NCBI GenBank assembly: GCA_029261295.1
Contig: JAJDBP010000017.1
Coordinates: 372,001-436,000 of the forward strand
Source: Nitrospirales bacterium
GTDB lineage: Bacteria > Nitrospirota > Nitrospiria > Nitrospirales > UBA8639
Direction of reading: 5' to 3'
DNA length: 64,000 bases
The position numbers and the translations under genes are program-made. Positions within the stretch are counted from its first letter, which is position 1. Each line of letters starts with the position of its first letter. The notes beneath the pieces are model-generated. The model was given only the letters and a program-made list of their open reading frames with translations. It ran no database searches and was not told the DNA's origin. Positions 34,864-51,951 of the stretch are shown here, one piece after another.

Positions 34864-36072
34864 CTATTTCCAAGCAACACTTTTTCCCAAAAGCAACTTC
34901 TTCAAAAATCCAGGAATCCATTTTATGACACTAGGCCGCCGCGCAATCCAGAACCCTATATGGAGGAGAATCCCCTCATTCAAAATTCTGAGCCAATACA
35001 GGGCACGTAGTTGCATGTTGTTCGGTGGAACCAAACACTTAGAGAGTATTCGCTTTGCCTCCGATTGAACCTGGAGGACGTTTTTTTCGTCAGGACGTCT
35101 CCCCATAAAGATTGGGGAATGGAAAAGTTTTCTTTTCAGTTGATCAATCGTTGGAGAAGAAAAATACGCCCGAAGACATAGACGACGATACCATTCACCA
35201 AGGACCGGGAGGCCGACAAGATTCCCTCGTTTAAGAGGAAAAAAGGTTAACTGTGATTCCGGGGTAAAACTCATAAGAGTCATCACCTCACTATTTGTTT
35301 CAGCATAGATTTCCTCAGACTGGCCAAAATTTCGAAAAATATAGTCCCCATCTATCGTCCATTCATCAAGAGTCTGAGTGTCATGTTTCTTTAGTGCCCC
35401 ATAATCCACCACCAGAGGCGCCCAAGTTTGAGTATGAACTAACAAGCTACCCTCGTCGACCTTCCACCAAACAAGAGATGGCGCCTCTGCATAAAAATAC
35501 GGTGCTTCCCACTCATTGCGTCTCATCTCAGAATGCATATGAGGGATGCCCAGTTCAATTAATTTTGCTCCTGGTAAGGCAATAGGAATGCCTGGTTTCA
35601 CGAGGCCCAATTTCATTAATTCATTCAAGAGCCCTTCATTGGCAAAACGCGGACAATGAGCAAGCACCACTTTTTTCTCTTCTTTTATGAGTCGCTGACA
35701 TTCCGCCACTACCCCATCTCCAAAAATAGTGTCCGGATAAATAAAGCTTCCGTAGACATTCTGCTCAAACATCTTACTAGCAATGGCTTTGTGCCCCTGA
35801 GACATGACATGCATTTTTGATTCACCAGGTTCCGGCTGTTGGATTTCAAGAAAAACTGGCTCAATATATTTTTTAAGCACATGAAAGATAGGGTGTTTTT
35901 GTATCTGAGCCCAATCTTCACAGGTTGTACAGATCAGAAAAGCATTCCCAGATCGCTTTTCCAAAGAAGGAATGTTATGAGGGGACAATAAGGAAGGAAG
36001 ACAAAAGTCAGTAAAAAACCCCCGAAACTCTTTTCCCCAAAACACTACTCCGAAATATATTGGGTTCGCCAT
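34864..36072 (-). CDS. FWG/SDG-family paralogue 1, unknown function, glycosyltransferase candidate
   Basis: I do not recognise a named family. The 402-residue protein shares collinear blocks with four other proteins in this window: IYFGVVFWG near the N-terminus, LPSLLSPHNIPSL, LICTTCEDW, MSQGHKA, YPDTIFGDGVV, APLVVDYGALKKHDT and TIDGDYIFRNF. The acidic positions in PDxxxxDG and DGDY are candidate metal- or nucleotide-binding residues. This copy is the shortest and has Gly for the Ser of SDG and a changed TNSEV for DSDEI, so it may be diverged in activity. GGGAGG four to five bases before ATG 36072 selects this start over ATG 36093. No signal peptide is seen, so it is probably cytoplasmic or membrane-peripheral. 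Confidence 0.75.
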   Translation of the reverse strand: MANPIYFGVVFWGKEFRGFFTDFCLPSLLSPHNIPSLEKRSGNAFLICTTCEDWAQIQKHPIFHVLKKYIEPVFLEIQQPEPGESKMHVMSQGHKAIASKMFEQNVYGSFIYPDTIFGDGVVAECQRLIKEEKKVVLAHCPRFANEGLLNELMKLGLVKPGIPIALPGAKLIELGIPHMHSEMRRNEWEAPYFYAEAPSLVWWKVDEGSLLVHTQTWAPLVVDYGALKKHDTQTLDEWTIDGDYIFRNFGQSEEIYAETNSEVMTLMSFTPESQLTFFPLKRGNLVGLPVLGEWYRRLCLRAYFSSPTIDQLKRKLFHSPIFMGRRPDEKNVLQVQSEAKRILSKCLVPPNNMQLRALYWLRILNEGILLHIGFWIARRPSVIKWIPGFLKKLLLGKSVAWK

Positions 36073-36120
36073 ACACCCTCCCGCATGGGCCATGAAAGAA
36101 ATATAAAGCGTTAATTTGAC

Positions 36121-37842
36121 TTAAAAAGGAGTTGCGAGGGCTAGAGGTTGAAAACCAATAGGCGGAGAATACACCAATCTGTCCTCAGAAACACACGACT
36201 CCATGGTCGCAGTTCCCTGACCTCCATGCTTGGACGATATAGCAGGGAACAAAGTGGCATTCAATCTTTGGAATGCAGAATTTTTTCCTATGGCCGGGTC
36301 CCCAGACTCAAACCATTCACCATTACGGCCAAACCATAACTCTCTTTTCTGCATATCCAAGGCAACCATAATGATTTCTGGAACTTTATTGGGAACACTC
36401 CCAAAGGCCATCTGTTTACCAGCGTGAACTTTTTTCCCATCACCACGCCACCCCCAACCATGTTTTTGGGATCCCAACTCTCGGACCAGGGAATGCTTTT
36501 CCCCAACAACTCCAATGCTTGCAGTCTCTCCTAATTTCCCTTTCCCTTCGGAAATATTTCGGAATGACACTTCCCAATACCACCTTCCGTTTTTAATCTT
36601 AGGCCCAAGTAACAATACCCGAATTGAATTTACTCCCGCTTGATTAGTAAATTCCATATTCTGCGGTTTTGAAAACATTTCCCCCTCTCTGGCCAATTGA
36701 AACAAAGAAAGAACCCTAAAAAACATTTTTTGAATTACTTTTAACAATAAAACCAAAATTTTTTCTTGGACTGAAGGTGGAGCACTGACTTTTTCCAGAA
36801 TTTTATTTGCTTGAGATTCAATTTCAATCCAATCACCGTCAGTCATCTTTTGGGAATGTATACGTACTCCACAGGATAAGATCGAACGCTTCAATGGGTC
36901 CATATCATGGGCATCTCTCACAGAACGTATAACATGGATTTTCCAATAGTCTTTTAAAATTGGCAGACAAAGAAACCATTGTGAGAGAAAAAGGTTTGAG
37001 CTGAGATACCCAAGAAAATCACCTTGTGGCGTAACACTCAACAAAAATATTTCATCGGAGTCCTCCACGACATAAATATCTTCACGGTTAGGGAAATTCC
37101 TGAAAATGTAATCTCCATCCATCGTCCAGTTTTTAAAAGTTTCCTCACAATGCTTGGACAACCCATGATAATTTACAAGGAGAGGCGCCCAACTAAAACT
37201 ATGGACTAGAATTGCTTTTTGGTCAGGAGTCCGAAAGAAAAAACTGATCGGGCGTTCAGCAAAAAACGGGGAATAGTAGTCATATCGCCTGGTCTCAACA
37301 TGCATATGACGAATCGCCATATCTGCTAATACTCTTGCAGGAAAAGAAAACCCTCCTTCAGGATTATTTTCACGAAGCATTTTGATTTTCGACAAAATTG
37401 GCTCTTGGGAAAAACGCATTGCCGCACAGAGCACAACCTTTTTCCCTTGAGACGCTAACTGGTATAACCTACTCACAGATCCATCCGACAAAACCAAATC
37501 AGGTGTGAGGAAAATTCCACACGCGCCCTCCGAAAATATTTTCTTGGTGGCCTTGAGATGCCCTTGAGACATAATTAAATATTTATTGTCCTGAGAGGCA
37601 GGAGCATTCATTGTAAGATGAGTCATTTTTATCAGGTTCTGGCAATGTAAAAATCCAGGGTGCCGCTTGAGATAGTCCCAATCATCATCTGTCGTAGAAA
37701 TCAGGAAACAATGGGACTGATGTCTGGGCAGTGCCGGAATATTATTCATCGACAGAAGAGAGGGGAGTAAGAATTCAAGAAATAATTCACGGTGCTGACG
37801 ACCCCAAAAAACGACCACGAAATAAAGACTCAGGTTTCCCAT
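36121..37842 (-). CDS. FWG/SDG-family paralogue 2 with C-terminal SPRY domain
   Basis: Residues 1 to about 380 align with the other paralogues (LYFVVVFWG, LPSLLSMNNIPAL, LISTTDDDW, IMSQGHLKA, TPDLVLSDGSV, HVETRRYDYYSPFF, APLLVNYHGL, TMDGDYIFRNF, VEDSDEIFLLS). From about 400 to 560 is a SPRY domain: NGRWYWEVSF, WGWRGDGKKVHAG, then IMVALDMQKRELWFGRNG and ATLFPAISS. SPRY domains bind protein or glycan-like ligands and are unusual in bacterial glycan loci. AGGAAG from the end of the preceding gene is 11 bases from ATG 37842 and 5 bases from a TTG at 37848, so TTG is a serious alternative. Only 2-8 bases separate it from paralogue 3. Confidence 0.78.
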   Translation of the reverse strand: MGNLSLYFVVVFWGRQHRELFLEFLLPSLLSMNNIPALPRHQSHCFLISTTDDDWDYLKRHPGFLHCQNLIKMTHLTMNAPASQDNKYLIMSQGHLKATKKIFSEGACGIFLTPDLVLSDGSVSRLYQLASQGKKVVLCAAMRFSQEPILSKIKMLRENNPEGGFSFPARVLADMAIRHMHVETRRYDYYSPFFAERPISFFFRTPDQKAILVHSFSWAPLLVNYHGLSKHCEETFKNWTMDGDYIFRNFPNREDIYVVEDSDEIFLLSVTPQGDFLGYLSSNLFLSQWFLCLPILKDYWKIHVIRSVRDAHDMDPLKRSILSCGVRIHSQKMTDGDWIEIESQANKILEKVSAPPSVQEKILVLLLKVIQKMFFRVLSLFQLAREGEMFSKPQNMEFTNQAGVNSIRVLLLGPKIKNGRWYWEVSFRNISEGKGKLGETASIGVVGEKHSLVRELGSQKHGWGWRGDGKKVHAGKQMAFGSVPNKVPEIIMVALDMQKRELWFGRNGEWFESGDPAIGKNSAFQRLNATLFPAISSKHGGQGTATMESCVSEDRLVYSPPIGFQPLALATPF

Positions 37843-37850
37843 TTCCAAAT

Positions 37851-39263
37851 CTACTTCCTAATCCGCAGTTCGCTCAAGGCGTTCTTAATTTGCTGACGAA
37901 TTTTCCGTGGCATTTTCCCCACAAAATAGAACGCCACATTTTGCAATCGTTCGAGCAAAGTTCGACCGGAAAAAAGATCCTTCACCCAAAGTGCTCTGAT
38001 AGCGGTTCGGCAAAAAATCCCCGGAGGCTTCAAAGCTCTCAGTACAATTTGCTCTGCAACCCACTCTGGTTTTCCCCAGGACTTGGTTAAAGGTTGGCTA
38101 TGCAATCTGATCGAACAACGATACAATTTCCTTTTAATTTGATCCCCCATGGGACCATATAGACTCCGCCGAATAAGAAAAATTTTATACAATGTACCTA
38201 GACCAGGAAGTTGCTTTAGAAAACCTTTGGAGATCGCATAGAAATATTCCTTATCTGGTGTAAAGCTAGCCAAGAATATCTCATCCGAATCCATAACTGC
38301 AGTGATATCTCTGTCCTTATCAAAATGTAAAGAAATATATTCTCCATCGGTCGTTCCACCCCGATCAAAATACTCTGAATGGTGTAGTTTCATACCCGAG
38401 TAACTCACCAAAAGGGGGGCCCAAAAAAAACTATGGAGCAAAGCACCAGTATCACCCGGTATCCGCCAAAACGATGAAGTGGCAGGATTGCAAAAAAACG
38501 GTGAGTCAAACTCAAAACAGGCTGTTTCTGTGTGTAGGTAGCCAAATACTAACTCCACAAGCTTGCGTGAATTTACAGTAAACGGTTGTCCAGGAACTAA
38601 CAATCCCTTTTTCTGAAATTCCCGAATGCAATTTTCAAGGGAAAATCGACATGCTGAAACCATAACAACTTTTTTCCCAAGGCTAGCCATTTCATCCAAA
38701 TATCCTAATCCCCCATCGGACAAGACCATATCTGGAGCGAGAAAAATCCCAAAAGCCTGATCTTGATACGCCTGGACAGCACAGGCTTTATGCCCTGCAC
38801 TCATGAAAAGGATTCGGGTCGCGTAATGATGGTGTTCTGTTAATTCAACCTTCATTTCCCTTCCTATGTCTTGCAATTCTGCAAACGCTTCCGGAGTCGC
38901 AATTTCCAACGGAGACACCAGTCCCTGATCTTTTTCCCGCAGCTCCACATTCGCGAGTGAATATCGCCGTTGCTTCTCTTGAAAGACATCTCTTAAAAAA
39001 ATCGGGACCTGACTCCGCAGTTCAAGAAAAACTGGGTCAGCATACCGTTTAAGAATAGCAAAGAGGGGGTCGACGGAAAGAACGTCCCAGTCATGCTGGG
39101 TAGTACAAATTAAAAATCGACAGGCGCGTTTGTTTAGAAGTGAAGGTATATTGCCGGGCGAAAGCAAAGATGGGAGGCATAGTTGAAGAAAATACTGGCG
39201 ATACGTTTGGCCCCAGAAGGCCACCACGAGGTAAAAAGGCCTAACCGACGCATTATCTTCCAC
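37851..39263 (-). CDS. FWG/SDG-family paralogue 3, unknown function, glycosyltransferase candidate
   Basis: The protein has the shared blocks: RPFYLVVAFWG, LPSLLSPGNIPSL, LICTTQHDW, MSAGHKA, APDMVLSDGGL, KKVVMVSACRFSLE, HTETACFEFDSPFF, APLLVSYSGM, TTDGEYISLHF and VMDSDEIFLASFTPD. Differences are an insertion of about 50 residues between the second and third blocks and Glu in DGEY for DGDY. I start at GTG 39263, where GGAAAGAAG is five bases upstream and the start lies just after the methyltransferase stop codon. Longer starts run into that gene. It is the third of three tandem copies, arranged head to tail without spacing. Confidence 0.75.
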   Translation of the reverse strand: MEDNASVRPFYLVVAFWGQTYRQYFLQLCLPSLLSPGNIPSLLNKRACRFLICTTQHDWDVLSVDPLFAILKRYADPVFLELRSQVPIFLRDVFQEKQRRYSLANVELREKDQGLVSPLEIATPEAFAELQDIGREMKVELTEHHHYATRILFMSAGHKACAVQAYQDQAFGIFLAPDMVLSDGGLGYLDEMASLGKKVVMVSACRFSLENCIREFQKKGLLVPGQPFTVNSRKLVELVFGYLHTETACFEFDSPFFCNPATSSFWRIPGDTGALLHSFFWAPLLVSYSGMKLHHSEYFDRGGTTDGEYISLHFDKDRDITAVMDSDEIFLASFTPDKEYFYAISKGFLKQLPGLGTLYKIFLIRRSLYGPMGDQIKRKLYRCSIRLHSQPLTKSWGKPEWVAEQIVLRALKPPGIFCRTAIRALWVKDLFSGRTLLERLQNVAFYFVGKMPRKIRQQIKNALSELRIRK

Positions 39264-39267
39264 ACAA

Positions 39268-39945
39268 TTACTTCTTTCCACAACATAAGCAAATATTATA
39301 ATGAGACATCGCGTGAAATCCTGTATGGACCACCTCATCATTCATGGAAAACATAAAGACATTTCGAAACCAACGTTCCATAAAGCGTTTTAGTTCCTTC
39401 TGGTCCTTACAGTTAACATGTCCAATTTGACTATGAGCCGAAGCATACGATTGTGACTGTAGGGAAGGAATGCCAATGATGACAATCCCATGGGCAGCCA
39501 ATGACCCTAAAATATTCTCAAGAAAGCGAGATTCTTGTTCTTCTGGAATATGTTCAAGAACATCTAATGAATACGCAGCATCAAATTCCCCTTCGACGGA
39601 TCCCTGCATGATATCATGCACCTTGCATTCGAAAGGCCACCGGTCTGACATAATGGATTTCGCAGAGTTGATAAGCTCAAAATCAAAATCTACTGCCGTG
39701 ATATGCCCAACAGCTTGGGCGACTACTCTTGTCCCAAACCCATCTCCACAACCTATCTCCAAAACCTGATCGAGACCCACCAACATTTTTGCGACAAATT
39801 TATATCTGGCCAATAAAAATCCCAGCCGTTTGGGATCATCATACCAAGACCAACCACTCATCAAACCAAGATGCTCAGGCTTACTTTTAATAAGTTCAAA
39901 GGCCTCCCTATATTGCTTCTCTCCAGAATCTGAATGAGCCGTCAT
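39268..39945 (-). CDS. Class I SAM-dependent methyltransferase
   Basis: The 225-residue protein has the SAM-binding motif VLEIGCGDGFGTRVV (motif I, about 59-73), motif II with ITAVDFDFELI, and AAYSLDVLEHIPEE (motif IV/post-II), the pattern of Methyltransf_11/23-type small-molecule methyltransferases. The C-terminus ends LCCGKK. Substrate residues cannot be read. Its stop codon lies 4 bases before the start of paralogue 3, and it follows the SDR gene by 23 bases. The operon context suggests sugar O- or C-methylation. Confidence 0.85.
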   Translation of the reverse strand: MTAHSDSGEKQYREAFELIKSKPEHLGLMSGWSWYDDPKRLGFLLARYKFVAKMLVGLDQVLEIGCGDGFGTRVVAQAVGHITAVDFDFELINSAKSIMSDRWPFECKVHDIMQGSVEGEFDAAYSLDVLEHIPEEQESRFLENILGSLAAHGIVIIGIPSLQSQSYASAHSQIGHVNCKDQKELKRFMERWFRNVFMFSMNDEVVHTGFHAMSHYNICLCCGKK

Positions 39946-39968
39946 TGACCTATTCCATTCCTCTCATC

Positions 39969-40868
39969 CTATCGATTTATTGCCATGAGTTGTGGGTTAT
40001 GATGAATATCTGCCTCATGAACGTGCAAAGGGGTAAACCTCATATTTGGGAAGGCGGCTTTTAAGAGCTTAGGGTCAAAAAATCGATGGGTTAACGGAAT
40101 TTCCCTGGGAACGTAAGTAATCTGAGGAAGAGGATTAATCAAAGGGGCAACAATCTCAGCTACTTCCGCAAAACTAAGTGAAACCCCTGTTGCAATATTA
40201 AGGATTCCCTGGCTGCGCTTGAATAAGCACTGGCTGATTATAGAAGCAACATCATTTACGGATATGTGATCTCGTTTATCTTCTCCTTTACCAAATAGAA
40301 CAATCTTCCCCTCTTTCTTCCCCATCCATCTGAATCGATTTGGGCCATAGGCATAATGAGTGTCTTCCAGTGATGAAACCTGTGTACACCGCAAAATAGA
40401 AACAGGGATGGCTGAATCACTAGAAAAAATTCGCTCCCGGCTCAGATGCATCGCGGCATAGGGATCAGATGGCTCCACAGGAGTTTCTTCATTAATCCTT
40501 TCTATATTTCGTGGATAGACGGCGTCTGAACTCAGATAAACGACATGGGACACTGGTTGACGAACAAAAGCCTCTACAATGCTCATACCAATTCCAATAT
40601 TATCGACAACTGCCTTTAATCCACGCCCTCGATTAGGAGCAATACCAGCAAGAACCACAACGGAATCTGTCGGCTCCAACAGTTTTGCTAGGCGGGTAGC
40701 GGCGTGAAAATCCAGTAGATTTATTTGTTGCGTGCTGAGTGAAAGTACTGGGATGGTTTTCTTGACAAGAACGTTAAGGAGAGTTCGCCCAATAACTCCC
40801 GTGCCTCCAATAATGACCACTCGAGAGGGGGGCTGATCTTCTAGGAAGGAATGGGAGAAAGTTGGCAT
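39969..40868 (-). CDS. Extended SDR with altered active site (YxxxH)
   Basis: The fold is an NAD-dependent epimerase/dehydratase: VVIIGGTGVIGRTL (19-32 region), VVVLAGIAPN, VYLSSDAVYP, ILRCTQV and RDHISVNDVAS. The catalytic YxxxK is replaced by Y137-A-A-M-H141. It is clearly paralogous to the SDR at 58151-59023, which is more altered. The change makes ordinary epimerase/dehydratase chemistry doubtful; histidine could still act in catalysis. The start is ATG 40868 (a TTG precedes it). Neighbours are paralogue 4 upstream and the methyltransferase downstream. Confidence 0.8.
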   Translation of the reverse strand: MPTFSHSFLEDQPPSRVVIIGGTGVIGRTLLNVLVKKTIPVLSLSTQQINLLDFHAATRLAKLLEPTDSVVVLAGIAPNRGRGLKAVVDNIGIGMSIVEAFVRQPVSHVVYLSSDAVYPRNIERINEETPVEPSDPYAAMHLSRERIFSSDSAIPVSILRCTQVSSLEDTHYAYGPNRFRWMGKKEGKIVLFGKGEDKRDHISVNDVASIISQCLFKRSQGILNIATGVSLSFAEVAEIVAPLINPLPQITYVPREIPLTHRFFDPKLLKAAFPNMRFTPLHVHEADIHHNPQLMAINR

Positions 40869-40910
40869 CAATCTTTAGTTCTACCCCAGAATGTATTTCA
40901 ATAATTTTCT

Positions 40911-42536
40911 TTAAGAAATTTTCTTGGTACGGATTTCTCGATGAAAATCTGAAGATGATTTACCAGTTTTTTTCTTTTTAAATTTATAAGCACCTTCCAA
41001 CCAAGAGCTGAAAAGATGGCGATCATGCCAAAGGGTAGAACGATTTTTCCAAGCCCATATCAAAGTAAAAATTGGATTCATTAGGCTGATACCTGGTGCA
41101 TTCCAATCGCCTTCATCCCAAATGTACCCACGTTCCTCAACCAATCCAAGCCTTTCTTTGAGTCGCCACCAAACAAATCGACGATATTTCCAACACCACC
41201 ATGTTCGAATAAAAAAATTCTTAATCGGCTTAAAGATCTCGCCAATGGCAAATAAAACCTTTAGCAGAATTCTCCGTGGTCGTACCACAAGGACCCACAT
41301 TAAGAAATACTTCCGAAGATCTTTCTGGGAAACGCCTTCTGCGTGGTGAGTCTGCAATTGGTGTAGAATATTTTTTGCAAATCGACTGGTAGTTGATTGC
41401 TCTATCACGTCAAAATGAAATTGCTCCCATAACGTAGTGGGCCGACAAGCGTCAGCAATCAACTTAGCTGACCTTTGTACTGTTTGATCCCAAGCTGGCG
41501 TTACATCTTCACTATGCAAAAAAACCCCTTTAGGGAAAATACACCGCTTCAAAGGGTCCATGACCAAACTATCTTTCAAAGAACGAATCAGGCCAGTTTT
41601 ATATACTTCTGAAAAGACTCCATACTGAACCTTTTTTGATTCAGGGATTAAATCAAAATGGAGTTCGGATTCTTTGGTGAAACTCACTAAAGAAATTTCA
41701 TCGCTATCTGTCACGACATGTACATCACCAGGATTAGGGAAATTCCGGTGAATATAATCCCCATCTAACGTCCACTTATCAAATGTCTTAGTATCGTGAC
41801 TTGTTAATGCTCCATAGTCCACAACAAGAGGTGCCCAGCTAAAACTATGAATAACCATCCCCTTACCAGGAGATACCCACCAGTACACGGATATAGGAGA
41901 GTCAGCAAAGTAGGCTGCTTCAAATTCATAGCGCACGGTTTCAGAATGAAGGTTCTTAAGAGCCAAATTCATTAATGCTCGTGCGGGAATGGCCAACGGT
42001 TTTCCATTCTTCAAAAATCCCTCTTTCGCCATTTCATGCAACATAGGATCTTGTTCAAATCGAATCGCTACACATAACACCACTTTTTTCCCTTGTTCCG
42101 CTAACCGCTCCATTGCGGATACGGACCCATCAGACAGGACAAGATCTGGAGTCACATAGACACCATAGGCTTCATCCTCATAGGCCTTCATCGACACTCG
42201 CTTGTGTCCTTGGGACATCACTAGCATTTTAGAAGATCGTTTATTGGGAAAGGCCATCTCCAAGAATACAGCTTCCACATGCTTGCAAAGTTCTTGAAAG
42301 AGAGCATTAGTCTGTAAGGCATCCCAATCCTGGAGAGTGGTCACAATTAGAAACTTATTGCGACGTTCCTTATTGAGAGCTGGGATATTATTCGGAGACA
42401 AAAGGGAAGCAACGAGCAAATTCGTGAAGTATCCACGATGTTCTTCTCCCCAGAAAACAACCGTAAAATAAAAGGGGCGCAAAAAGGGATCTTTTGGGGG
42501 GAGGCTACTATCGTAGTGCTGTGAAGTACTTGGCAT
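40911..42536 (-). CDS. FWG/SDG-family paralogue 4, unknown function, glycosyltransferase candidate
   Basis: The 541-residue protein shows the family blocks in their cleanest form: RPFYFTVVFWGEEHRGYF, LLSPNNIPAL, LIVTTLQDW, VMSQGHKR, TPDLVLSDGSVSAME, KKVVLCVAIRFEQD, HSETVRYEFEAAYF, HSFSWAPLVVDYGAL, DGDYIHRNF and VTDSDEISLVSFT. After about residue 300 comes a helical region with two amphipathic or hydrophobic stretches (LRKYFLMWVLVVRPRRILLKV) and a Trp/Arg-rich tail that could sit on the inner membrane face. AGGA precedes ATG by six bases. It lies directly downstream of wzt, so it is expected to act with the export module. Confidence 0.78.
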   Translation of the reverse strand: MPSTSQHYDSSLPPKDPFLRPFYFTVVFWGEEHRGYFTNLLVASLLSPNNIPALNKERRNKFLIVTTLQDWDALQTNALFQELCKHVEAVFLEMAFPNKRSSKMLVMSQGHKRVSMKAYEDEAYGVYVTPDLVLSDGSVSAMERLAEQGKKVVLCVAIRFEQDPMLHEMAKEGFLKNGKPLAIPARALMNLALKNLHSETVRYEFEAAYFADSPISVYWWVSPGKGMVIHSFSWAPLVVDYGALTSHDTKTFDKWTLDGDYIHRNFPNPGDVHVVTDSDEISLVSFTKESELHFDLIPESKKVQYGVFSEVYKTGLIRSLKDSLVMDPLKRCIFPKGVFLHSEDVTPAWDQTVQRSAKLIADACRPTTLWEQFHFDVIEQSTTSRFAKNILHQLQTHHAEGVSQKDLRKYFLMWVLVVRPRRILLKVLFAIGEIFKPIKNFFIRTWWCWKYRRFVWWRLKERLGLVEERGYIWDEGDWNAPGISLMNPIFTLIWAWKNRSTLWHDRHLFSSWLEGAYKFKKKKTGKSSSDFHREIRTKKIS

Positions 42537-42554
42537 AATTAGTCCTGGTAGGAT

Positions 42555-43316
42555 TTAAGCAACGGACTGATTCAACTGGTGATACTCCTTTATCACATCA
42601 TCCACACTGCCCTGAGCAATAATTCTCCCCCCTTGCAAAAGTATGGCTTTATTACACATGGCTTTTATGAGGGCATCCGAATGAGAGGCCAGCACCAAAA
42701 TACTCGCTCGCTCGACTAATGCATCCACTCGTTTATTCGCCCGTTCCGCAAATCGAGCATCTCCAGCTCCTAGGCCCTCATCTAACAATAAAATTTCAGG
42801 ATCAATACACGTGGCAATTCCAAATCCCAGTCGGACTAGCATACCCGTCGAATAGGTTCGCACTGGCAGAGACAAATAATCTCCGAGCTCTGAGAATTCC
42901 TCAATTTCCGGAGTTTTTTGAACGATTTCTTCTGGCGTCATGCCAAGAAACATGCCACACGTTTGAATATTTTCATAGCCACTATCATCACCATCCAAAC
43001 CAGGAGAGGTGCTAAACAGTGGGGAAACCTTTCCATCAATTTTGACTGTTCCTTGTGTTGGTTCATAGACCCCGGAACAAACACGCAGCAACGTCGATTT
43101 TCCAGCCCCATTATGACCAATCATCCCCAAGCGATCACCATGGGAAAGATTAAACGAAATATTTTCTAGCGCTCGAACCGAGACTCGTTCGTTATTGTCA
43201 CCTTCTCGACGAATAAATCCTCCAGTTGTTTTAGCAAAAAGGGCATGACGAAAGGTTTTCTGTGACCCATAAATTGGAAAATCAACGGTGACGTTATCCA
43301 CGACCAAAGATGCCAT
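42555..43316 (-). CDS. wzt: ABC transporter ATP-binding protein (polysaccharide export, Wzt-like)
   Basis: The 253-residue ATPase has Walker A GHNGAGKST (67-75), the ABC signature YSTGML (155-160), Walker B EILLLDEGLGAGD and the switch His in LASHS. It pairs with the permease 42 bases upstream. GGAG sits before ATG. The chain ends soon after the nucleotide-binding domain, so the C-terminal carbohydrate-recognition domain of long Wzt proteins is absent. In known short-Wzt systems, export does not depend on recognising a modified chain end. Confidence 0.92.
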   Translation of the reverse strand: MASLVVDNVTVDFPIYGSQKTFRHALFAKTTGGFIRREGDNNERVSVRALENISFNLSHGDRLGMIGHNGAGKSTLLRVCSGVYEPTQGTVKIDGKVSPLFSTSPGLDGDDSGYENIQTCGMFLGMTPEEIVQKTPEIEEFSELGDYLSLPVRTYSTGMLVRLGFGIATCIDPEILLLDEGLGAGDARFAERANKRVDALVERASILVLASHSDALIKAMCNKAILLQGGRIIAQGSVDDVIKEYHQLNQSVA

Positions 43317-43358
43317 CTTAATTATCTCCTGATTTGAATTTCGAATCGTACGCCATAT

Positions 43359-44153
43359 TTAAATCCAATAGGAAATGCGGCGCCGGAAACGGCTAAATAC
43401 CATCAAGGCTGCTATCCAGCCGAAAAATGTCACTACCCCTACAAAGACCCAGCTCCAAAGAGAAGGAGCTTTTCCAAGAAGCGGGGACCGAACAATATCG
43501 ACAACATGAAAAAGAAAATTGTAATCGACGAGAGAAATGAGTCGTTTTCCTAATTGATCCGTGGTCCAAAAAATTGGTGTAACAAACATGGACAGTTGAA
43601 GAATACTGGACATTACTTGTTGAATATCTCTGAAACGACAACAGATCAATCCCAAAAGAATAACCATCCACAAGCTATTGAGAATGAGTAGAAGAAGTCC
43701 AGGAACAACCAGCAAAGTCGACCAGGTCACAGACACTCCCGCATAGAGGCCAACTAAAAGAAAAACAATCAAGTTGTGAAAAAACACGATGACATTGCGC
43801 CAGACCACAGACCAGACTAGCATTGAATAAGGGAATCGAAGTTGCTTAATGAGCCCTTCCGCTGAAAAAAATACCGCACATCCCTCGATTAATGTTGTGG
43901 ATACCATCACCCAGACTAAAAATCCCGAGCATAAAAATGGTAAATATGTTGTGGCATCTTGTTTCCACAAATGAGCCCACATAATTCCTAACGTCAAAAT
44001 AAAAATTCCTAAGGATAACGTCGTCCAAAATGGACCAATCATCGTTCGACGATAACGGCGTTTGATATCCAGCCACCCTAAACGCCCCCACATACGCCAA
44101 CCTAACGTTCCTTCTATAAAATCTGCTAAAGCAGAGCCATATTGAGGCTGCAT
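43359..44153 (-). CDS. wzm: ABC-2 type permease (polysaccharide export, Wzm-like)
   Basis: The 264-residue membrane protein has about six hydrophobic segments and the ABC-2/Wzm N-terminal segment WGRLGWLDIKRRYRRTMIGPFW, quoted in part as the motif RYRRTMIGPFW. Together with Wzt it would move the lipid-linked glycan across the inner membrane. GGGAAG precedes ATG. The 227 bases upstream are non-coding and are a likely place for a promoter, although no good -35/-10 pair was found. Confidence 0.92.
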   Translation of the reverse strand: MQPQYGSALADFIEGTLGWRMWGRLGWLDIKRRYRRTMIGPFWTTLSLGIFILTLGIMWAHLWKQDATTYLPFLCSGFLVWVMVSTTLIEGCAVFFSAEGLIKQLRFPYSMLVWSVVWRNVIVFFHNLIVFLLVGLYAGVSVTWSTLLVVPGLLLLILNSLWMVILLGLICCRFRDIQQVMSSILQLSMFVTPIFWTTDQLGKRLISLVDYNFLFHVVDIVRSPLLGKAPSLWSWVFVGVVTFFGWIAALMVFSRFRRRISYWI

Positions 44154-44380: not shown

Positions 44381-45433
44381 TTAGGAAAGGACGGTTCCTA
44401 CTAATTCTTCAGCTGGCTTAGGATGCCCACCTAATAAATTACCTTGCCAGTTATTGAGACGAGCAATCTTATTATAGTACGTATATTGAGGTGATTTTCG
44501 AATTAGTAGGCCATCACGAATCTCTTCATCAAAGGAAAACTGCGCCCAGCCATTACAGGGCTTACAAAATGGGATTTGATCCCATTGCCCGGTTTCATGG
44601 AAATATCGAGCTTTCGCGAACTTTTCACCATTCCAAACAGCTCTGACACCTTCTTTAAAGACATTCCCCATATTGGTACTTTTAAAGCCGTCTAAACAAC
44701 AGACCGTCACGGTCCCATCATTGTGAACCGGTAGGGTGTTATACAAGGCGGGGCATGGCAATCGTTCTGGAGGAGTCTCCATGTCCGGAAATGTTCCATT
44801 TTCAAACAGCAGCCCCATTCTCACGACGTCCACAACTCCCACCCAACGAGCCACAAAATCATCGTATTCATGAGCATTATCATCTTGCGTCGTAAAAGAC
44901 ACTCCCACACGAGGGAAAGACGCATCACCCCTCATTTTCATAAGACGAAAGACAGCAGCCTCCAGATTTTCAAGTTTATCGATACCCCGAATTTTCCTTA
45001 AAGTTTTACGAGTCACCGCATCGATGCTAAACATGACGGAATCAACTTTTTGGTCGACAAAAAACTGAGCAAGATCTTCATTCAATGTCAGTCCATTCGT
45101 ATTCATGGCTACAGCCATTCCACGTGATTTCATTTCAACAATTTGTTCGCGCAGGTTTGGAGCGAGCAACGGTTCCCCATACATATTCGGTTGGATTAAA
45201 GGATTGGCCTTCATTATTTCATCAAGTAAATTCCGAGAAGCCTCCAAATCCATCGAACCTGTTACGGAATCAATGGCTTGATCGTCTTCTGAGCCCCAAA
45301 CAGGGCACATAGGACACCGCAAATTACAAGTCGTGGCCAAATCAAGGAGGACACGACCTGGCAACTCTGGAACGGGAAGAGGCTTCCAATTTAGTGTTGG
45401 ATCAACCCATTCCGACGATGACCAATTAGACAT
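44381..45433 (-). CDS. Radical SAM / SPASM domain protein
   Basis: The 350-residue protein carries the radical SAM cluster motif CNLRCPMC (C36, C40, C43) after a hydrophobic strand (LLDLATT), and GEPLL as the GGEP-like segment. A C-terminal SPASM-type cysteine region (GTVTVCCLDG, GNVFKEG, PFCKPCNGW) would bind auxiliary clusters. SPASM enzymes are known for peptide modification, but members of this subgroup are frequent in glycan loci with undefined roles. AGGGAGG before ATG is strong. It lies between fkbM and the wzm-wzt pair. Confidence 0.88.
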   Translation of the reverse strand: MSNWSSSEWVDPTLNWKPLPVPELPGRVLLDLATTCNLRCPMCPVWGSEDDQAIDSVTGSMDLEASRNLLDEIMKANPLIQPNMYGEPLLAPNLREQIVEMKSRGMAVAMNTNGLTLNEDLAQFFVDQKVDSVMFSIDAVTRKTLRKIRGIDKLENLEAAVFRLMKMRGDASFPRVGVSFTTQDDNAHEYDDFVARWVGVVDVVRMGLLFENGTFPDMETPPERLPCPALYNTLPVHNDGTVTVCCLDGFKSTNMGNVFKEGVRAVWNGEKFAKARYFHETGQWDQIPFCKPCNGWAQFSFDEEIRDGLLIRKSPQYTYYNKIARLNNWQGNLLGGHPKPAEELVGTVLS

Positions 45434-45493
45434 AGCAACCTCCCTTTATTACTACTTCAATTCAAGCATTCAAACTCAAGTAACCATACCTAG

Positions 45494-45514: not shown

Positions 45515-45530
45515 ATTTACGGGGGGGGAT

Positions 45531-46685
45531 TTACGTGAGAGCGTACAGAACGCTCTCAATAATTCCTCCATCATGTTGTCGAATATACAATTTATAGTCT
45601 GAACGTAATGCTCGAATTTCTTGGGGTATCATCCAAAGATCTGCCGGATTATGATAGAGAGAAATGCCTAATTTCGGCCCCCAAGTTCGAATAGCCTGTT
45701 CCCCTCCACGTAGGGCTTCAAGTTCTGCTCCTTCAATATTCATCTTAATAAACGTGACACGGTCTGATCCTAAAATTTCATCCAACCCAACAACAGGAAT
45801 TTCTACTTCTCCTGTATCAGTAAAAATAGATCCCCTGGTTCCCGCATTATCAAAACGTAACACCCCTTTTCGACGGTGTAACCCTGCATTGATCGCCTCA
45901 ATTTTAGGGTTGTCTGAAAAATTTTTGTTTAATCGTTTAAAGGTTTCTTGATCTGGCTCGAAAGCCAACACACGGGAGAATTCCCCCTGCACCCTATCGA
46001 TAAAAAGTCGGACTGAGTCCCCATCGAAGGCCCCACCATCGACATACACCTCATCTTTTCCATAATTAATAAGGTTTTTGGCTCCATACAAATCCCATTC
46101 TATAATCGGGGACAAAACCCGAGGATCGAAAGTCAGCCTGTATCCCAAAACTGCGTCGAGAACAAGCTGGGACATTTCATCAGCAACGTTTTCCATTAGC
46201 TCATCATATCGTTCCCGATTAGTGACTAAATCTTCTAATAAATTCGAATAAAACATATGAGGAGGAAACAGTTGTGGGCTTAAAACTTCCAGCAATCCAA
46301 ATGGTGCCACTCGGATAAAACCCATTGCCCAAATTCGTTCCATAACCTTTAAAACTCGATGCGAAGCGATAATGACTGGAATTTCTGGATCTACCTCCGA
46401 GAGGGACTTGAGGGGCTGAATGGTCCGCTCACCCACAACCAATCCCTGTTTTTCAGGGTGATCATCAACATGCGCCTCTACCCTGATTCCTTTTTCCGCG
46501 CAAATTTCCGAAAGTCTGACCCCTTCCTCGGCTGCCCCAACGATAACCATTCTCGTCAATCGATCAGGAGAAAAATCCGGGTAACGCTCAGCAAGCCATG
46601 TCCGAACAGTTTCGACTGAACCAAAAGACCCGATCTGGCTCAACCATTTCTTGTGTGACAAGGATGCGGTAGTTGTAGCTTTCAT
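45531..46685 (-). CDS. FkbM family methyltransferase with N-terminal Rossmann-like domain
   Basis: The C-terminal half (about 205-375) is the FkbM methyltransferase: VYVDGGAFDGDSV as SAM motif I, VLAFEPDQETFKRL, and FIKMNIEGAELEALRGG. The N-terminal half has MVIVGAAEEGVRL and VHAHVDD-like strands, resembling the nucleotide-sugar-binding Rossmann domain of PglD-type proteins, followed by a helical linker. Known FkbM proteins O-methylate polyketides or sugars. ATG 46685 has GGAAGTGA upstream; a TTG six codons earlier is less likely. It is divergent from the frameshifted rfbC-like gene. Confidence 0.87.
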   Translation of the reverse strand: MKATTTASLSHKKWLSQIGSFGSVETVRTWLAERYPDFSPDRLTRMVIVGAAEEGVRLSEICAEKGIRVEAHVDDHPEKQGLVVGERTIQPLKSLSEVDPEIPVIIASHRVLKVMERIWAMGFIRVAPFGLLEVLSPQLFPPHMFYSNLLEDLVTNRERYDELMENVADEMSQLVLDAVLGYRLTFDPRVLSPIIEWDLYGAKNLINYGKDEVYVDGGAFDGDSVRLFIDRVQGEFSRVLAFEPDQETFKRLNKNFSDNPKIEAINAGLHRRKGVLRFDNAGTRGSIFTDTGEVEIPVVGLDEILGSDRVTFIKMNIEGAELEALRGGEQAIRTWGPKLGISLYHNPADLWMIPQEIRALRSDYKLYIRQHDGGIIESVLYALT

Positions 46686-46756
46686 AGTAAAATTCACTTC
46701 CAATATGGTGACTAGGGAGACCCTACGTAAACACGTTTCCTTCTTTCAATAATTCC

Positions 46757-47366
46757 ATGCTTCATCAATCGAATTTCCAACCCTCATCTTCAGATATTGT
46801 CATTGAAGGCCTTCAGGTCAAAACTTTGAAAATCCCAGATATTAAAATTTTCCGTGCAGAAGCTAAGCAGGATATTCGGGGTAAATGTTGTGCCAACCTT
46901 TAATAGCCTGTTTTTTGAATCATTGGGCATTCATTTTCAGGTTCTCCATGAGAACCACTGTTCCTCTCCAGAAAGTGGTACGATTCGAGGATTTCATTAC
47001 CAACTCCCACCTCATGGACAAGCTAAGCTCATTCGAGTATGCCAAGGGAGAATTCTGGACGTAAGCATTGATCTTCGAAAAAGCTCTTCAACCTTTGGAC
47101 AACATGTCAAAGTGGAATTGGAGCCAAATGACTGGAACCAAGTTTTCGTTCCAGAAGGGTTTGCTCATTGCTATTGTACCTTAGAACCTCATACTGAAGT
47201 AAATTTTAAACTTGGATCTCCATTTGCCCCATCCTTTGCCCGAGGACTCACGTGGAACGACCCTGACCTTGGCATTTCCTGGCCCGTCTCAGAAGAAACG
47301 GCTATCGTCCTGAAACGCGACCTCGACAGACCAAAATTTTCTACCATCACGGAATGGTTTCCTTAA
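46757..47366 (+). pseudogene. dTDP-4-dehydrorhamnose 3,5-epimerase-like gene with a frameshift
   Basis: The frame from GTG 46854 (170 residues) encodes most of an RmlC-like cupin: TIRGFHYQLPPHGQAKLIRV, ILDVSIDLRKSSSTF, VFVPEGFAHCY and GLTWNDPDLGISWP. Its N-terminal strand is missing. ATG 46757 in another frame encodes IEGLQVKTLKIPDIKIFRAEA-like sequence ending QDIRG, the expected family D-x-R-G motif, and then goes off into a stop codon. Removing one base in the GTAAATG stretch (46881-46887) would join the two parts into about 202 residues with DIRGNVVPTF at the joint. So it is either a broken gene or a single-base sequencing error. It is one of the few plus-strand genes in the locus and overlaps the Nudix gene tail to tail by 20 bases. 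Confidence 0.7.
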
Positions 47367-47847
47367 GCCCCTCATCCCTCAGGCAAGTTTTATGATGATA
47401 GAGAAACAGAGCAAACGCATCGTAGGGGGTTACTCGTAATTTCTCAAAAATATCATTCCCCTCAAATACTTCCATTCCATCCCCTTCATGGAGAACTAAC
47501 GCTGCCTGTTCTTCTGGAGAAATGTTAATAAGATAATACGTTCGATAATAACTCCGAAGACCAATTGGGTCTAGGTCAAAATCAAAACGAGAAAAATATG
47601 TGACCTGCGAAGGTTGAAATTCAATTTCTTCATTTAATTCACGTGCGAGTGCCTCAAGAGGCTCTTCTCCCTCCTGCACACCTCCCCCAAAACACCCCCA
47701 ATGCCCCGGATACCAAATATGCGGAACATTATCACGATGTTGGAGTAAATAACGCCCAACTCCAACCGTGATAATAGCCGCAACGGCATCGCCAACTTGG
47801 AGTTGCCCCTGATCAATCCGGCCTATTGAGGTGTCGGGCAACTTCAT
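47347..47847 (-). CDS. Nudix hydrolase
   Basis: The 166-residue protein has a complete Nudix box from G55 to E74: G55 then E61, and R69-E70-L71-N72-E73-E74, giving the GX5EX7REUXEE pattern and Mg2+ site. The strands before it (AVAAIITVGVGRYLLQHRDN and WGCFGGG) are typical. In glycan loci Nudix proteins often hydrolyse nucleotide sugars such as GDP-mannose, but the final Gly of the box is not clear and substrate residues cannot be assigned. Its 3' end overlaps the convergent rfbC-like gene. Confidence 0.88.
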   Translation of the reverse strand: MKLPDTSIGRIDQGQLQVGDAVAAIITVGVGRYLLQHRDNVPHIWYPGHWGCFGGGVQEGEEPLEALARELNEEIEFQPSQVTYFSRFDFDLDPIGLRSYYRTYYLINISPEEQAALVLHEGDGMEVFEGNDIFEKLRVTPYDAFALFLYHHKTCLRDEGLKETIP

Positions 47848-48018
47848 AATGAAAAAACCCGGACGTCTGATCGACCCATCATGTCAATCTCATGCACTCA
47901 AACACAATCCAATTCAAAAATATTTCCCAAAAGCCTAACGCTCTTCCCCTCTCCCCAAAAGCTATCCTTTTAAGAAAGACGCAACCTACTGCGGTATTCA
48001 AACCTTCTAAGTATCAGC

Positions 48019-48786
48019 CTACATCATTCGATAACGTTCTCCGGGTTTGGCCAATATGGAATCTGGTGAAAAATCTAGCCGATTAGTCACAACCCGTACC
48101 ATATCTGCTGACTTGAATGCCCGACAAATCGTATTGTCTATCCTTGTAATTTTCAGCAATCCTTCTCTGGCTAATTCATCTTGGAATTGGAAATAATTCC
48201 GAGGAAGAAACTGATGCCGTCGAAGGCACACTTGCTTTTCTTCCCCTTTTCGGGTCCGACAGATATAGGTTTCTTTTTGGGAAGCTGGTCGAAGATACAC
48301 CTCAGGAGCCACCGTTTCTTCCACTGCATGAATAAGCGTACAGCAGTCGATAGAAATTCCCATCAGGAGAATCCAACCATTGCGGTTCGCATGTAAACCG
48401 AATGGACTTCTGGCAGAACATGGAGTTTCATCGAGATGGTGAGAGCTAAGAAGTTCTGATGCTAGTGCCCCTCTTCCAGCAACTGAATGGGTCGGATGAC
48501 AACTACGTGTATCCGCATATTTTTGACGAAAGATCTCAGTTAGAATCCCAGTATTGGATGGAGTATGAAGCTCCTCAAAAATTGGGTGCGCTTTATTCAC
48601 AAATCGCCAAGACATCGTGGGCATCAACAACGTCCCGGGCTCCATATAACCAACCAACTGATTTAAAATCCCAATAGGATCGTGTCCATCCTTGGATAAC
48701 TGCTTAAAGGCACTATGCACCATTAGGACCCCTTCGGGCTCAATACCCAGAAGCTCGAGAGCCTTTTTCACCGGGAAAGGGGCCAT
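48019..48786 (-). CDS. AAC(3)-family acetyltransferase, probably acting on a sugar
   Basis: The 255-residue protein has the aminoglycoside 3-N-acetyltransferase fold signatures: VHSAFKQL, LLMPTMSW and SCHPTHSVAG (H97, H100), the acetyl-CoA/catalytic segment, then LLMGISIDCCTLIHAVEE. Members of this family in O-antigen clusters acetylate amino sugars, and the position between a Nudix and a carbamoyltransferase gene favours that. It does not by itself suggest antibiotic resistance. The carbamoyltransferase gene ends 14 bases upstream, so the two are probably co-transcribed. No clear SD precedes ATG. Confidence 0.82.
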   Translation of the reverse strand: MAPFPVKKALELLGIEPEGVLMVHSAFKQLSKDGHDPIGILNQLVGYMEPGTLLMPTMSWRFVNKAHPIFEELHTPSNTGILTEIFRQKYADTRSCHPTHSVAGRGALASELLSSHHLDETPCSARSPFGLHANRNGWILLMGISIDCCTLIHAVEETVAPEVYLRPASQKETYICRTRKGEEKQVCLRRHQFLPRNYFQFQDELAREGLLKITRIDNTICRAFKSADMVRVVTNRLDFSPDSILAKPGERYRMM

Positions 48787-48800
48787 TTTATATTTCTATA

Positions 48801-50420
48801 TTATGGTTTTGTGACAACAAAATTTCCCATAATCAAAGCATCAAGGCCGCAACCATAAAACGTCATGAGAGCATCACGAGGCGTCTCCACAATCGGTTGA
48901 CCTTTTAAATTAAAACTGGTGTTCAAAATAATAGGCACTCCGCTCTTTTTGGAATAATTTTTTATTAGCTCATAATAGACTTCATTCGTTGAACTATTCA
49001 CCGTTTGCACTCTGGCCGTCCCATCAACATGCACGACAGCAGCCATTTGATCAGCCTGTTCTTCCACGGCATCCAAGGTGAAGGTCATATAGGGAAACTC
49101 TTTTCGGTCATGAGTATGAAACCATGTTCCCACATCCTCTTGAAGAATTGACGGGGCAAATGGACGAAATTCTTCACGATATTTGATACGGGCATTCACA
49201 AGATCCCGAATATCCGTCGTCCCACAATTTGCAAGAATTGAACGATTCCCAAGTGAACGAGCCCCAGACTCCGAACGCCCTTGATACCAACCAATTATCT
49301 TTCCATTGGCCAGTAATTCTGCTCCGGGCTCAACGGGGTCATCCACTTCCTCAAAACGACATCCATTAGCCTCAAGTTCCTGACGAATACTTTCATTTGA
49401 ATAATTAGAGCCAAGATAAGGATCCCAAAGCTGCCAAGGCGAATCACCCAACAATTTCGCACCATGGTAAGCACATCCCACCGCTAATCCACGATCTGAA
49501 GCTACAGGTGGCACATACACCTGATCTAAATATTCGGAATCAAGCAATCGCCTGGTCGCAGAACAATTCAACGCCACTCCACCGGCAAAACAGAGGTTTC
49601 GCACCCTAGGTAGTCGGGAATGGAGTTCTTCAACCGTACTCAACAAACATTCCTCCAACATCAGTTGAGTACTCCGAGCAACATCTCGATGGAAATCCTC
49701 AACCGGGGCACCCGGCAATCGATTCGGACGTCCGAGCAAATCAGCAAGTTTTTGAGAATACACCGGTTCAAAGGGTGATTTGGGTGCCGGATTATTTCTC
49801 ACAAATGACCAATCAAACTCCCACCCACCTTTGACAGGCCGCAGAATTGATGAAAGATCAATAGTCGGTTTCCCATAGGGGGCTAGTCCCATAACTTTGT
49901 ATTCATCGCCATCCTCAAAACCAAGATAATACGTCATTAAGGTATAAAAGAATCCTAGAGATGAGGAAGTAGGAATCGTTTCGAGAACCTTGATGCCTTC
50001 CCCCCTCGTCGCATGGGCAAACATTCCACAAGAACCATCACCTGCCGCATCCAGTGAGAGGCAAAGCGCCTCCTCTAAACCTGACCCATAAAAAGCAGTT
50101 GCCAGGTGTGCTTCCTGATGATGAACCTTTTCCAGCCGAGGGCATGACCCAAAGAGATGCCGAAGATAATCCCTCCACCGATCTCCAATATCGTCATAGG
50201 TCACTCCAGGAGTCACAATCAAATCGATATCTTTCCATTGAATATTCGCCTGCGCCAAACAGGCCTTTATCGCCCGATGTGGAAGATATCCATAACAGGA
50301 TTTAATTCGGAGATACCGTTCTTCCTCACAATGAGCGACAATTCGCCCATTCACAGAAAGAGCTGCCGCAGGTTCATGTTGTCCGATCGTGACACCTCCA
50401 TGTAAACCTAAAACAATCAT
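48801..50420 (-). CDS. NodU/CmcH-family carbamoyltransferase
   Basis: The 539-residue enzyme has the two-part carbamoyltransferase layout. The N-terminal Kae1-like domain has GGVTIGQHEPAAAL, VHHQEAHLATAF (metal-binding HxxxH), SLDAAGDGS and the nucleotide-binding FAGGVALNCSATRRL. The C-terminal YrdC-like domain has GRSESGARSLGNRSILA, KYREEFRPFAPSIL and LNTSFNLKGQPIVETP. The family transfers carbamoyl from carbamoyl phosphate through carbamoyl-AMP to a hydroxyl of a sugar or antibiotic. In this locus it would carbamoylate a glycan residue. ATG 50420 with GGGGA upstream is preferred to a TTG four codons earlier. Confidence 0.92.
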   Translation of the reverse strand: MIVLGLHGGVTIGQHEPAAALSVNGRIVAHCEEERYLRIKSCYGYLPHRAIKACLAQANIQWKDIDLIVTPGVTYDDIGDRWRDYLRHLFGSCPRLEKVHHQEAHLATAFYGSGLEEALCLSLDAAGDGSCGMFAHATRGEGIKVLETIPTSSSLGFFYTLMTYYLGFEDGDEYKVMGLAPYGKPTIDLSSILRPVKGGWEFDWSFVRNNPAPKSPFEPVYSQKLADLLGRPNRLPGAPVEDFHRDVARSTQLMLEECLLSTVEELHSRLPRVRNLCFAGGVALNCSATRRLLDSEYLDQVYVPPVASDRGLAVGCAYHGAKLLGDSPWQLWDPYLGSNYSNESIRQELEANGCRFEEVDDPVEPGAELLANGKIIGWYQGRSESGARSLGNRSILANCGTTDIRDLVNARIKYREEFRPFAPSILQEDVGTWFHTHDRKEFPYMTFTLDAVEEQADQMAAVVHVDGTARVQTVNSSTNEVYYELIKNYSKKSGVPIILNTSFNLKGQPIVETPRDALMTFYGCGLDALIMGNFVVTKP

Positions 50421-50520
50421 TGATTCCCCCAAAGCATTCGAAGAATGGTTTATAACCTAAGCTACTTTTAGCGATCGTATTTAACGTAAAACAGCTATTG
50501 TTAGAATTAATCCTTTTAAA

Positions 50521-51951
50521 TTAGAAATGTCTCATTGGCACTCCACGAAGAGTTTTCCATATCGTACCGAATCTCTGAAGAATTCTTTTTCGAGCATTTT
50601 CATCTCCGCCAAGAGCTTCTCTCATTCGACTTTTGAGCCGTTCACGTGAGTGGATAAGAGTCGAAGAGATCATCCATATTCTGCCTAACGTGACAATCGG
50701 AATAAAAAATATTCGACGGATCATTGCGTTGAGAGAAACCCCTTTCAAATCCTTGCCCAACTTGGAAGCTGCTCCCTCCTTCCCAATAGGGGCTAATTCC
50801 ATATCCGATAAATATCGTTCTAAAACCTTCTGCGATTCCGCTTCTCGCTTCTCCCAATTTTCCCCAAGGTTTTCGGCATGCCATTTCACAGAAAGGAAAA
50901 ATATTTGTAGCTTAAGTGAATCAAAAATTCCGCTTAATAAAGCTGCACGGAGAATTCCACCTTTGACCCACTCTCCTACTACCGGAAGTCGTTTGACAAA
51001 ATTGGGGGTAATACTCTGGGGACGATCAGCGAGAGGAGCCCAACTCACCAACATCACTTCATCTGAATCCCTCACGATATACATATCCTGAGGATCTTTA
51101 AAGTTTTGAAAGACATAGTCTCCATCCAAAGTCCACGTATCAAAGGTTGAGGTATCATGAGATTCGATCGCTGAATAATCACAAAGTAGGGGAGCCCAAC
51201 TGAGTGAATGTAGAATAATTCCTTCTTCACCCTGAACATTCCACCAACAGGCACAAGGAAAACTCGAAAAATAGGGAGCATCCCATTCATACCGTTGAGT
51301 CTGACTATGAAAACTTCGGAGGCCCGCTTTAACCAATTGGCGACCTGAAAGAGATAAGGGAAGACCGGTCTTTGAGTGAGCTTCCTCTGCTTTCAAAAAC
51401 CCAAGAGATCGAAGATTGGCAAAAAGTGGCTCTTCCCCAAATCTGAGTGCAGCAGTAAGCACGACTTTAAATCCGGCTTGTGCAGATTTTATTAATACTT
51501 GAACCGTCCCATCAGAAACCATTAAATCAGGAGTCAAAAAAACTCCATACGCTTTATCACGATAGGCCATTTGGGCAGCCAGCTTATGCCCTATCCCCAT
51601 ATGTTCACAGCCAGACTTATCTTGGGGTGGATCAGGAATTTCTACGAAATGGGGCTCGATACAGTGCTGAAGACTTTTGAAAATCTGAACTTGCCTTAGC
51701 GCTTCCCAATCGTTGGGAGTGGTACAGAAAAGAAATTTATTTCCCTCAATACCCTCAAGTAGAGGAATATTGTTGTGAGAAAGAAGACTTGGCAAGCAAT
51801 AATCACAAAGATAATTTCGAAAGATTTCGCCCCAAAAAACCACGATGAAATAAAATGGTCGAAGGACAGTAGTTCCAGAGCACGCTTCGTGTTCCTGTGA
51901 AATCACTTTTTCAGGTTTGGCCATATTTATTGAAGTTGGCAATGACTTCAT
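50521..51951 (-). CDS. FWG/SDG-family paralogue 5, unknown function, glycosyltransferase candidate
   Basis: The 476-residue protein has all shared blocks: RPFYFIVVFWGEIFRNYL, LPSLLSHNNIPLL, LFCTTPNDW, GIGHKLA, TPDLMVSDGTV, FKVVLTAALRFGEE, HSQTQRYEWDAPYF, HSLSWAPLLCDYSAI, TLDGDYVFQNF and VRDSDEVMLVSW. The C-terminal 150 residues are helical and basic, and differ from the other copies. ATG 51951 is used; the SD is weak (GCAGGAA very close to ATG). It is separated from paralogue 4 by about 8 kb of export and modification genes, and it lies opposite the divergent gene at 52182. Confidence 0.77.
   Translation of the reverse strand: MKSLPTSINMAKPEKVISQEHEACSGTTVLRPFYFIVVFWGEIFRNYLCDYCLPSLLSHNNIPLLEGIEGNKFLFCTTPNDWEALRQVQIFKSLQHCIEPHFVEIPDPPQDKSGCEHMGIGHKLAAQMAYRDKAYGVFLTPDLMVSDGTVQVLIKSAQAGFKVVLTAALRFGEEPLFANLRSLGFLKAEEAHSKTGLPLSLSGRQLVKAGLRSFHSQTQRYEWDAPYFSSFPCACWWNVQGEEGIILHSLSWAPLLCDYSAIESHDTSTFDTWTLDGDYVFQNFKDPQDMYIVRDSDEVMLVSWAPLADRPQSITPNFVKRLPVVGEWVKGGILRAALLSGIFDSLKLQIFFLSVKWHAENLGENWEKREAESQKVLERYLSDMELAPIGKEGAASKLGKDLKGVSLNAMIRRIFFIPIVTLGRIWMISSTLIHSRERLKSRMREALGGDENARKRILQRFGTIWKTLRGVPMRHF

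Follow-up and report, generated by a model that had tools for sequence, protein, structure and literature searches.

Polysaccharide loci that rely on an ABC transporter for export, such as those for O antigens and galactans, combine WecA-like initiation and Wzm/Wzt export with, as a rule, a set of GT2 and GT4 glycosyltransferases. Long Wzt proteins carry an extra C-terminal carbohydrate-binding domain. In GT-A enzymes, a DXD (or xED/EDD) motif that follows the fourth strand binds the metal and the nucleotide-sugar, and the catalytic base of GT2 enzymes lies directly before a helix; the sugar nucleotidyltransferase class is recognized instead by an N-terminal GGxGTRLxPxT signature. Polysaccharide loci with too few recognizable transferases are common in environmental bacteria.

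Here we describe one such locus in a Nitrospirales genome, contained largely in a 64,000-nt stretch that we refer to, at its full length, as the window. Like the ABC-transporter-dependent loci (Wzm/Wzt, NF050108), it has WecA-like initiation, Wzm/Wzt export and a short Wzt, whereas the usual sets of GT2 and GT4 enzymes are replaced by a family of five related proteins and one GT4. On account of their homology, predicted fold and conserved residues, and of the locus and its conservation, these five are very probably paralogous GT-A glycosyltransferases, cytoplasmic or at the membrane surface, from a family without an assigned name.

Results

Five related proteins with an unassigned core

The five ORFs were confirmed, all on the minus strand between positions 34864 and 51951 of the window (Table 1), and the genome holds exactly five members. 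An initial annotation made from the sequence had described them as one family with collinear motifs, three in tandem and one abutting wzt, and this description holds in each respect: BLASTP matches 10 of 10 member pairs (E 1e-45 to 3e-91, identity 32-43%, aligned length 344-429 residues for pairs matching in one piece), a MAFFT alignment of the five contains approximately 56 invariant columns, the named motifs occur in the same order in all five, and a gap of 19 bp separates member 4 from wzt. Member 1 departs from the motifs in having YPDTIFGDG for PDxxxSDG and NSEV for DSDE, and member 3 in having DGEY as well as its insertion. ORF calling places the starts of members 1 to 3 at 36093, 37848 and 39341, as against 36072, 37842 and 39263 in the initial annotation; in the longer form of member 3 thus predicted, the first 74 bases overlap the preceding methyltransferase gene.

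Table 1. Positions in the window of the family members, their motifs and domains, and neighboring genes.
Feature	Position	Strand	Description
Member 1	34864..36093	-	409 aa, group 1; acidic motifs most diverged (YPDTIFGDG, DGDY, NSEV)
Member 2	36121..37848	-	575 aa, group 2; predicted GT-A core and C-terminal SPRY domain
SPRY domain of member 2	36214..36585	-	residues 422-545; PF00622, E 3e-13
Member 3	37851..39341	-	496 aa, group 3; ~60-aa insertion ahead of GHK motif
Member 4	40911..42536	-	541 aa, group 4; 19 bp from wzt; core modeled by AlphaFold2
TPDLVLSDG motif of member 4	42126..42152	-	residues 129-137; D131 at putative GT-A DXD position
DGDY motif of member 4	41754..41765	-	residues 258-261; D258 at start of helix, putative catalytic base
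DSDE motif of member 4	41697..41708	-	residues 277-280; D277 kept 22/23, putative third acidic residue of the site
Trp/Arg-rich C-terminal module of member 4	41037..41201	-	residues 446-500, one copy
Member 5	50521..51951	-	476 aa, group 5; betaproteobacterial homologue (L009) in same group
Nucleotidyltransferase with hexapeptide repeats	26529-28037		
Class I SAM methyltransferase	39268..39945	-	between members 3 and 4
NAD-dependent epimerase/dehydratase	39969..40871	-	
Wzt-like ABC ATPase	42555..43316	-	253 aa; closest to NF050108 galactan export Wzt, below cut-off
Wzm-like ABC-2 permease	43359..44153	-	
Radical SAM/SPASM protein	44381..45433	-	
FkbM-family methyltransferase	45531..46703	-	
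NodU-like carbamoyltransferase	48801..50432	-	
Split transketolase, two genes	54686..56442	-	neighbor of most distant homologues too
HldE-like fusion, PfkB kinase and cytidylyltransferase-like domain	61270..62829	-	heptose or octose activation

The proteins had also been called unrecognized, which is accurate for the core and inaccurate for the C-terminus of member 2, where a SPRY domain had been missed. Searches of Pfam, NCBIfam, PHROGs and PDB sequences assign the core of the five to no known family; the PHROGs matches of member 2 fall on the SPRY region only. No member matches PF00535 (GT2) at E ≤ 10. One distant homologue (L011) does so weakly, with 14.4 bits (cut-off 23.3) and E 0.036, over the same strand as PDxxxSDG. 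PF00534 (GT4/GT-B) likewise finds no match in the five, and the structural model of the core consists of one GT-A domain rather than two Rossmann domains. In profile-profile comparison the family does not match whole GT2 proteins of its own genome; against domain-trimmed GT2 from that genome the match is confined to the strand of the DXD motif and is not significant (P 0.058). What speaks against a glycosyltransferase assignment, at the level of sequence, is that no significant link connects the family to any GT family. By the Pfam test the family is not GT2, though it probably works like GT2.

Searches of viral contigs found no family member, the one candidate match (L068) being a false positive, a restriction-enzyme-like helicase without a match to the family profile, and no homologue was found among INPHARED phages. 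In a limited literature search, neither the family nor SPRY-fused glycosyltransferases were found described. The family has no assigned name in Pfam or NCBIfam, an absence that does not prove absence from CAZy or InterPro.

A predicted GT-A fold

Residues 1-420 of member 4 were modeled with AlphaFold2 from an alignment of 12 members. The resulting model (mean pLDDT 87.7, pTM 0.85) predicts a single α/β/α domain with a GT-A sheet. A Foldseek search of the PDB yielded 120 matches (E ≤ 0.001). The best 50 of these 120 are all GT-A glycosyltransferases of several families, except RmlA; they include RmlT (E 9e-6), SpsA (E 2e-5), TarP, and cellulose and hyaluronan synthases. VIA-align, with transferases only among the matches listed, gave Z-scores of 14.8 for AvpGT, 14.0 for WrtF and 13.6 for SpsA over approximately 180-200 residues. 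TM-scores over the whole model are low (0.25-0.34), because only ~180-220 residues align. The GT-A prediction of the initial annotation, which had pointed to structure prediction as a check, is thus borne out at the level of the predicted fold by a confident model whose best PDB matches are overwhelmingly GT-A enzymes, and fold alone does not prove function.

The exception among these matches, RmlA (E 3e-5), is a nucleotidyltransferase with the GT-A-type fold that is common to both classes, and its presence would agree with the five being sugar-1-phosphate nucleotidyltransferases that make the activated sugars of the locus instead of joining them. We consider this improbable: the members lack the N-terminal GGxGTRLxPxT loop of NTP_transferase enzymes, carry FWGxxxR in its place and give no corresponding Pfam match; the listed Foldseek matches are mostly, and those of VIA-align exclusively, transferases; five diverged paralogues beside an exporter suit transferases better; and the window already encodes an HldE-like cytidylyltransferase-type enzyme and a nucleotidyltransferase (26529-28037).

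A predicted structure in BFVD, A0A6J5PWU5 from an uncultured Caudovirales phage, matches the model along its full length (E 5e-28, TM 0.72/0.87, 23% identity) and is a probable member of the same family; it is phage-borne and uncharacterized.

A candidate active site

In member 4, TPDLVLSDG comes after a strand formed by residues 124-127, and three lines of evidence place PDxxxSDG at the DXD position: the order of secondary-structure elements, the weak local profile alignment and the weak PF00535 match of the distant homologue. The local alignment pairs TPD with D-S-D of GT2 enzymes from the same genome and sets D131 on the second Asp, at the non-significant P value given above. The initial annotation had suggested that the acidic motifs fit a metal-dependent GT-A site. 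The position would agree with this, but the motif is an incomplete DXD and truly deviates from the canonical form: the second Asp alone is kept and the first is replaced by Pro, Ala or other residues. Across 23 diverse members, W29, G30, N50, R159 and H197 are conserved in 23/23, and D131, D258 and D277 each in 22/23, D131 being replaced by Glu in one homologue (L028). D258 of DGDY directly precedes a helix (259-265) in the model. The conserved residues would cluster in one pocket.

The incomplete DXD, the loss of the DSDE acids in member 1 and the proximity of a GT4 and other candidates are what might be expected if some or all of the five were non-catalytic GT-A-fold scaffolds or acceptor-binding partners, with the chemistry performed by the GT4 and by unseen enzymes. 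A role of this kind is possible for single members; as an account of the family we find it unlikely, given that D131, R159, H197 and D258 are retained throughout the five members and in distant relatives, and given the conservation of the locus described below.

Accessory domains

The SPRY domain of member 2 scores 50.2 bits against a Pfam gathering score of 26.3, and the domain is also present, by sequence, in the orthologues from two other genomes (G254 and G137). The Trp/Arg-rich module of member 4, of approximately 50 residues (YRRFVWWRLKEKLGLV...), is duplicated in the G254 and G137 orthologues; the module-bearing orthologues lie at L007:3367-5160 and L010:1498-3327. The C-terminal segments of the members are hydrophobic or aromatic-basic, and their top hydropathy (1.1-1.9) is below that of the permease (2.7), which suggests, as far as sequence can, attachment to the membrane surface rather than spanning.

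Distant members have additions of their own. One (L012:1441-2940) has a C-terminal fasciclin domain (Pfam E 1e-8), two (L027, L028) show apparent C-terminal TPR-like repeats by eye, and those on a Solidesulfovibrio plasmid (L041) match TPR weakly in an N-terminal region and seem to include a Rossmann part.

The locus and its conservation

In addition to the genes in Table 1, the locus encodes an AAC(3)-like acetyltransferase and DegT. To the right of the window, polysaccharide genes continue with a transaldolase, GmhB-like and GmhA-like proteins, a WecA-like PNPT with CoA_binding_3, an epimerase, one GT4 (7 kb right of the window), an O-antigen ligase-like protein and KpsF. The initial annotation had reported no GT2 or GT4, which is correct within the window; for the locus it is correct for GT2 only. 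Its further proposal that the five are the transferases of the locus is favored by the predicted GT-A fold and the conserved locus, with the correction that they are not the sole ones: the search for ordinary glycosyltransferases right of the window brought in the GT4, the WecA-like initiator and the O-antigen ligase-like gene. The Wzt is too short to hold the C-terminal carbohydrate-binding domain, which makes control of chain length by such a domain improbable here.

The transaldolase (TIGR02134, above cut-off), the GmhB-like phosphatase and the GmhA-like isomerase are encoded just beyond the right edge of the window (L017:856-2843). Together with the HldE-like protein, this set resembles the heptose and also the lincosamide octose pathway, and a sugar of 7 or 8 carbons may be part of the exported polymer. 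The window also encodes, at 52182-53405 on the strand opposite to the family genes, an unrecognized 407-aa protein that is kept in all three syntenic loci. Considered as another transferase, it gave no family match and no link to TIGR04372; a single-sequence fold prediction reached a pLDDT of only 34, and visual inspection suggests a GT-B-like C-terminal half (LNLGVNNGP), a likeness that no search supports.

The many decorating enzymes of the locus, comprising the carbamoyltransferase, the AAC(3)-like acetyltransferase and methyltransferases, would be compatible with the five using a GT-A-like fold to transfer a non-sugar group (e.g., phospho-alditol, acyl or amino). No structural match of such a kind occurs among the best 50, and we regard this as highly improbable. 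No rival fits the context as well as the reading of the five as GT-A transferases.

Named homologues come from Nitrospira and Nitrospirales MAGs. Reciprocal best hits show that G254 and G137, which belong to two other genera, share synteny with the locus over approximately 40 kb and keep the five members in an unchanged order. In a tree, the members from the three genomes form five groups with one member per genome each (support 99-100, except for group 2, the lowest, at 87/83), indicating that the members were duplicated before the locus diverged or was transferred. The stability of the five orthologous groups suggests that each has kept a role of its own, which argues against scaffolds. In each of the three genomes the locus contains 0 GT2 and 1 GT4, and 14-17 GT2 matches lie elsewhere in the genome. 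This combination of zero GT2 and a single GT4 is the strongest context argument for the five as transferases; if the five were non-catalytic, the one GT4 in each locus would hardly suffice to build a polymer served by so many sugar-making genes.

The family is rare in the phylum, being present in 4 of 246 sampled genomes (first profile); within the taxonomic family, 6 of 49 genomes have members. Proximity to wzm/wzt, proposed earlier as a further check, is found elsewhere: the same ABC-transporter polysaccharide locus occurs in three genera, and members lie near wzm/wzt in a fourth (L046). In G127, a distant member adjoins Wzm/Wzt 58% and 74% identical to those of our locus, on a contig that ends near the family member, so that nothing can be concluded from the lack of a transketolase gene there. 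In a betaproteobacterial MAG (L009), a group-5 member has as neighbors homologues of the FkbM, AAC(3)-like, DegT, transketolase, methyltransferase and epimerase genes of our locus. Distant members occur beside split transketolase and methyltransferases in G252 and G256, with a fasciclin domain in G239, and twice on plasmid pDCAR1 of Solidesulfovibrio carbinolicus (L041), where the locus also holds pseB, pseC, parts of a transketolase and methyltransferases. A TIGR04372 glycosyltransferase lies between the two plasmid members; in our genome no TIGR04372 protein scores above cut-off. Far homologues thus reside in glycan loci (L009, L046-L049, L041), and split transketolase accompanies the family in most of the lineages surveyed (our window, L009, L041, L047, L048 and L049), even at ~25% member identity. 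The distant members have long branches in the tree, and their exact placement is unsure.

Discussion

The family resembles GT2/PF00535 enzymes (SpsA, RmlT, TarS/TarP, WrtF, AvpGT) in its predicted GT-A fold (residues ~19-325), in an acidic loop that follows the fourth strand of the sheet and would take the DXD position, and in an Asp at a helix start that would correspond to the catalytic base of GT2. It differs in the lack of a significant sequence match, in keeping only the second Asp of DXD, and in having conserved motifs (FWG, SLLSxxNIP, WAPLxxY, LHSE) and a lengthy C-terminal region that are foreign to GT2. Catalytic activity, donor and acceptor sugars, metal use and an inverting or retaining outcome are inferred.

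In the mechanism we propose, the WecA-like enzyme would start a lipid-linked chain, each member would most likely add one particular sugar to it from a nucleotide-sugar donor, and the Wzm/Wzt transporter would export the finished chain. The donor would bind at the C-terminal end of the first β sheet, where D131 of TPDLVLSDG would act as the metal-binding Asp of DXD; D258 of DGDY would be the catalytic base of an inverting enzyme or line the acceptor site, and R159, H197 and D277 would complete the site. The SPRY domain, the Trp/Arg-rich module and the hydrophobic helices may serve to position the enzymes on the membrane or to bind the acceptor. More tentatively, and with less than even confidence, we suggest that a GT-A family lacking from Pfam and NCBIfam supplies, via five-fold duplication, nearly all linkages of one exported polysaccharide; that it keeps half of DXD and recruited SPRY, fasciclin, TPR and Trp/Arg repeats as acceptor- or membrane-binding parts; and that it travels with a split transketolase making an unusual higher-carbon or branched sugar that the family uses.

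Elsewhere, SPRY has been described in eukaryotic TRIM proteins and in phage tails, and its presence here suggests new bacterial fusion partners for transferases. The family offers a new handle for profile searches (FWG...SLLSxxNIP...PDxxxDG...WAPL...DGDY...DSD), and the split transketolases that recur beside it open the sugar pathway to testing. As a candidate for a new CAZy family, it would fill the transferase gap in one of the many polysaccharide loci in which such a gap is seen.
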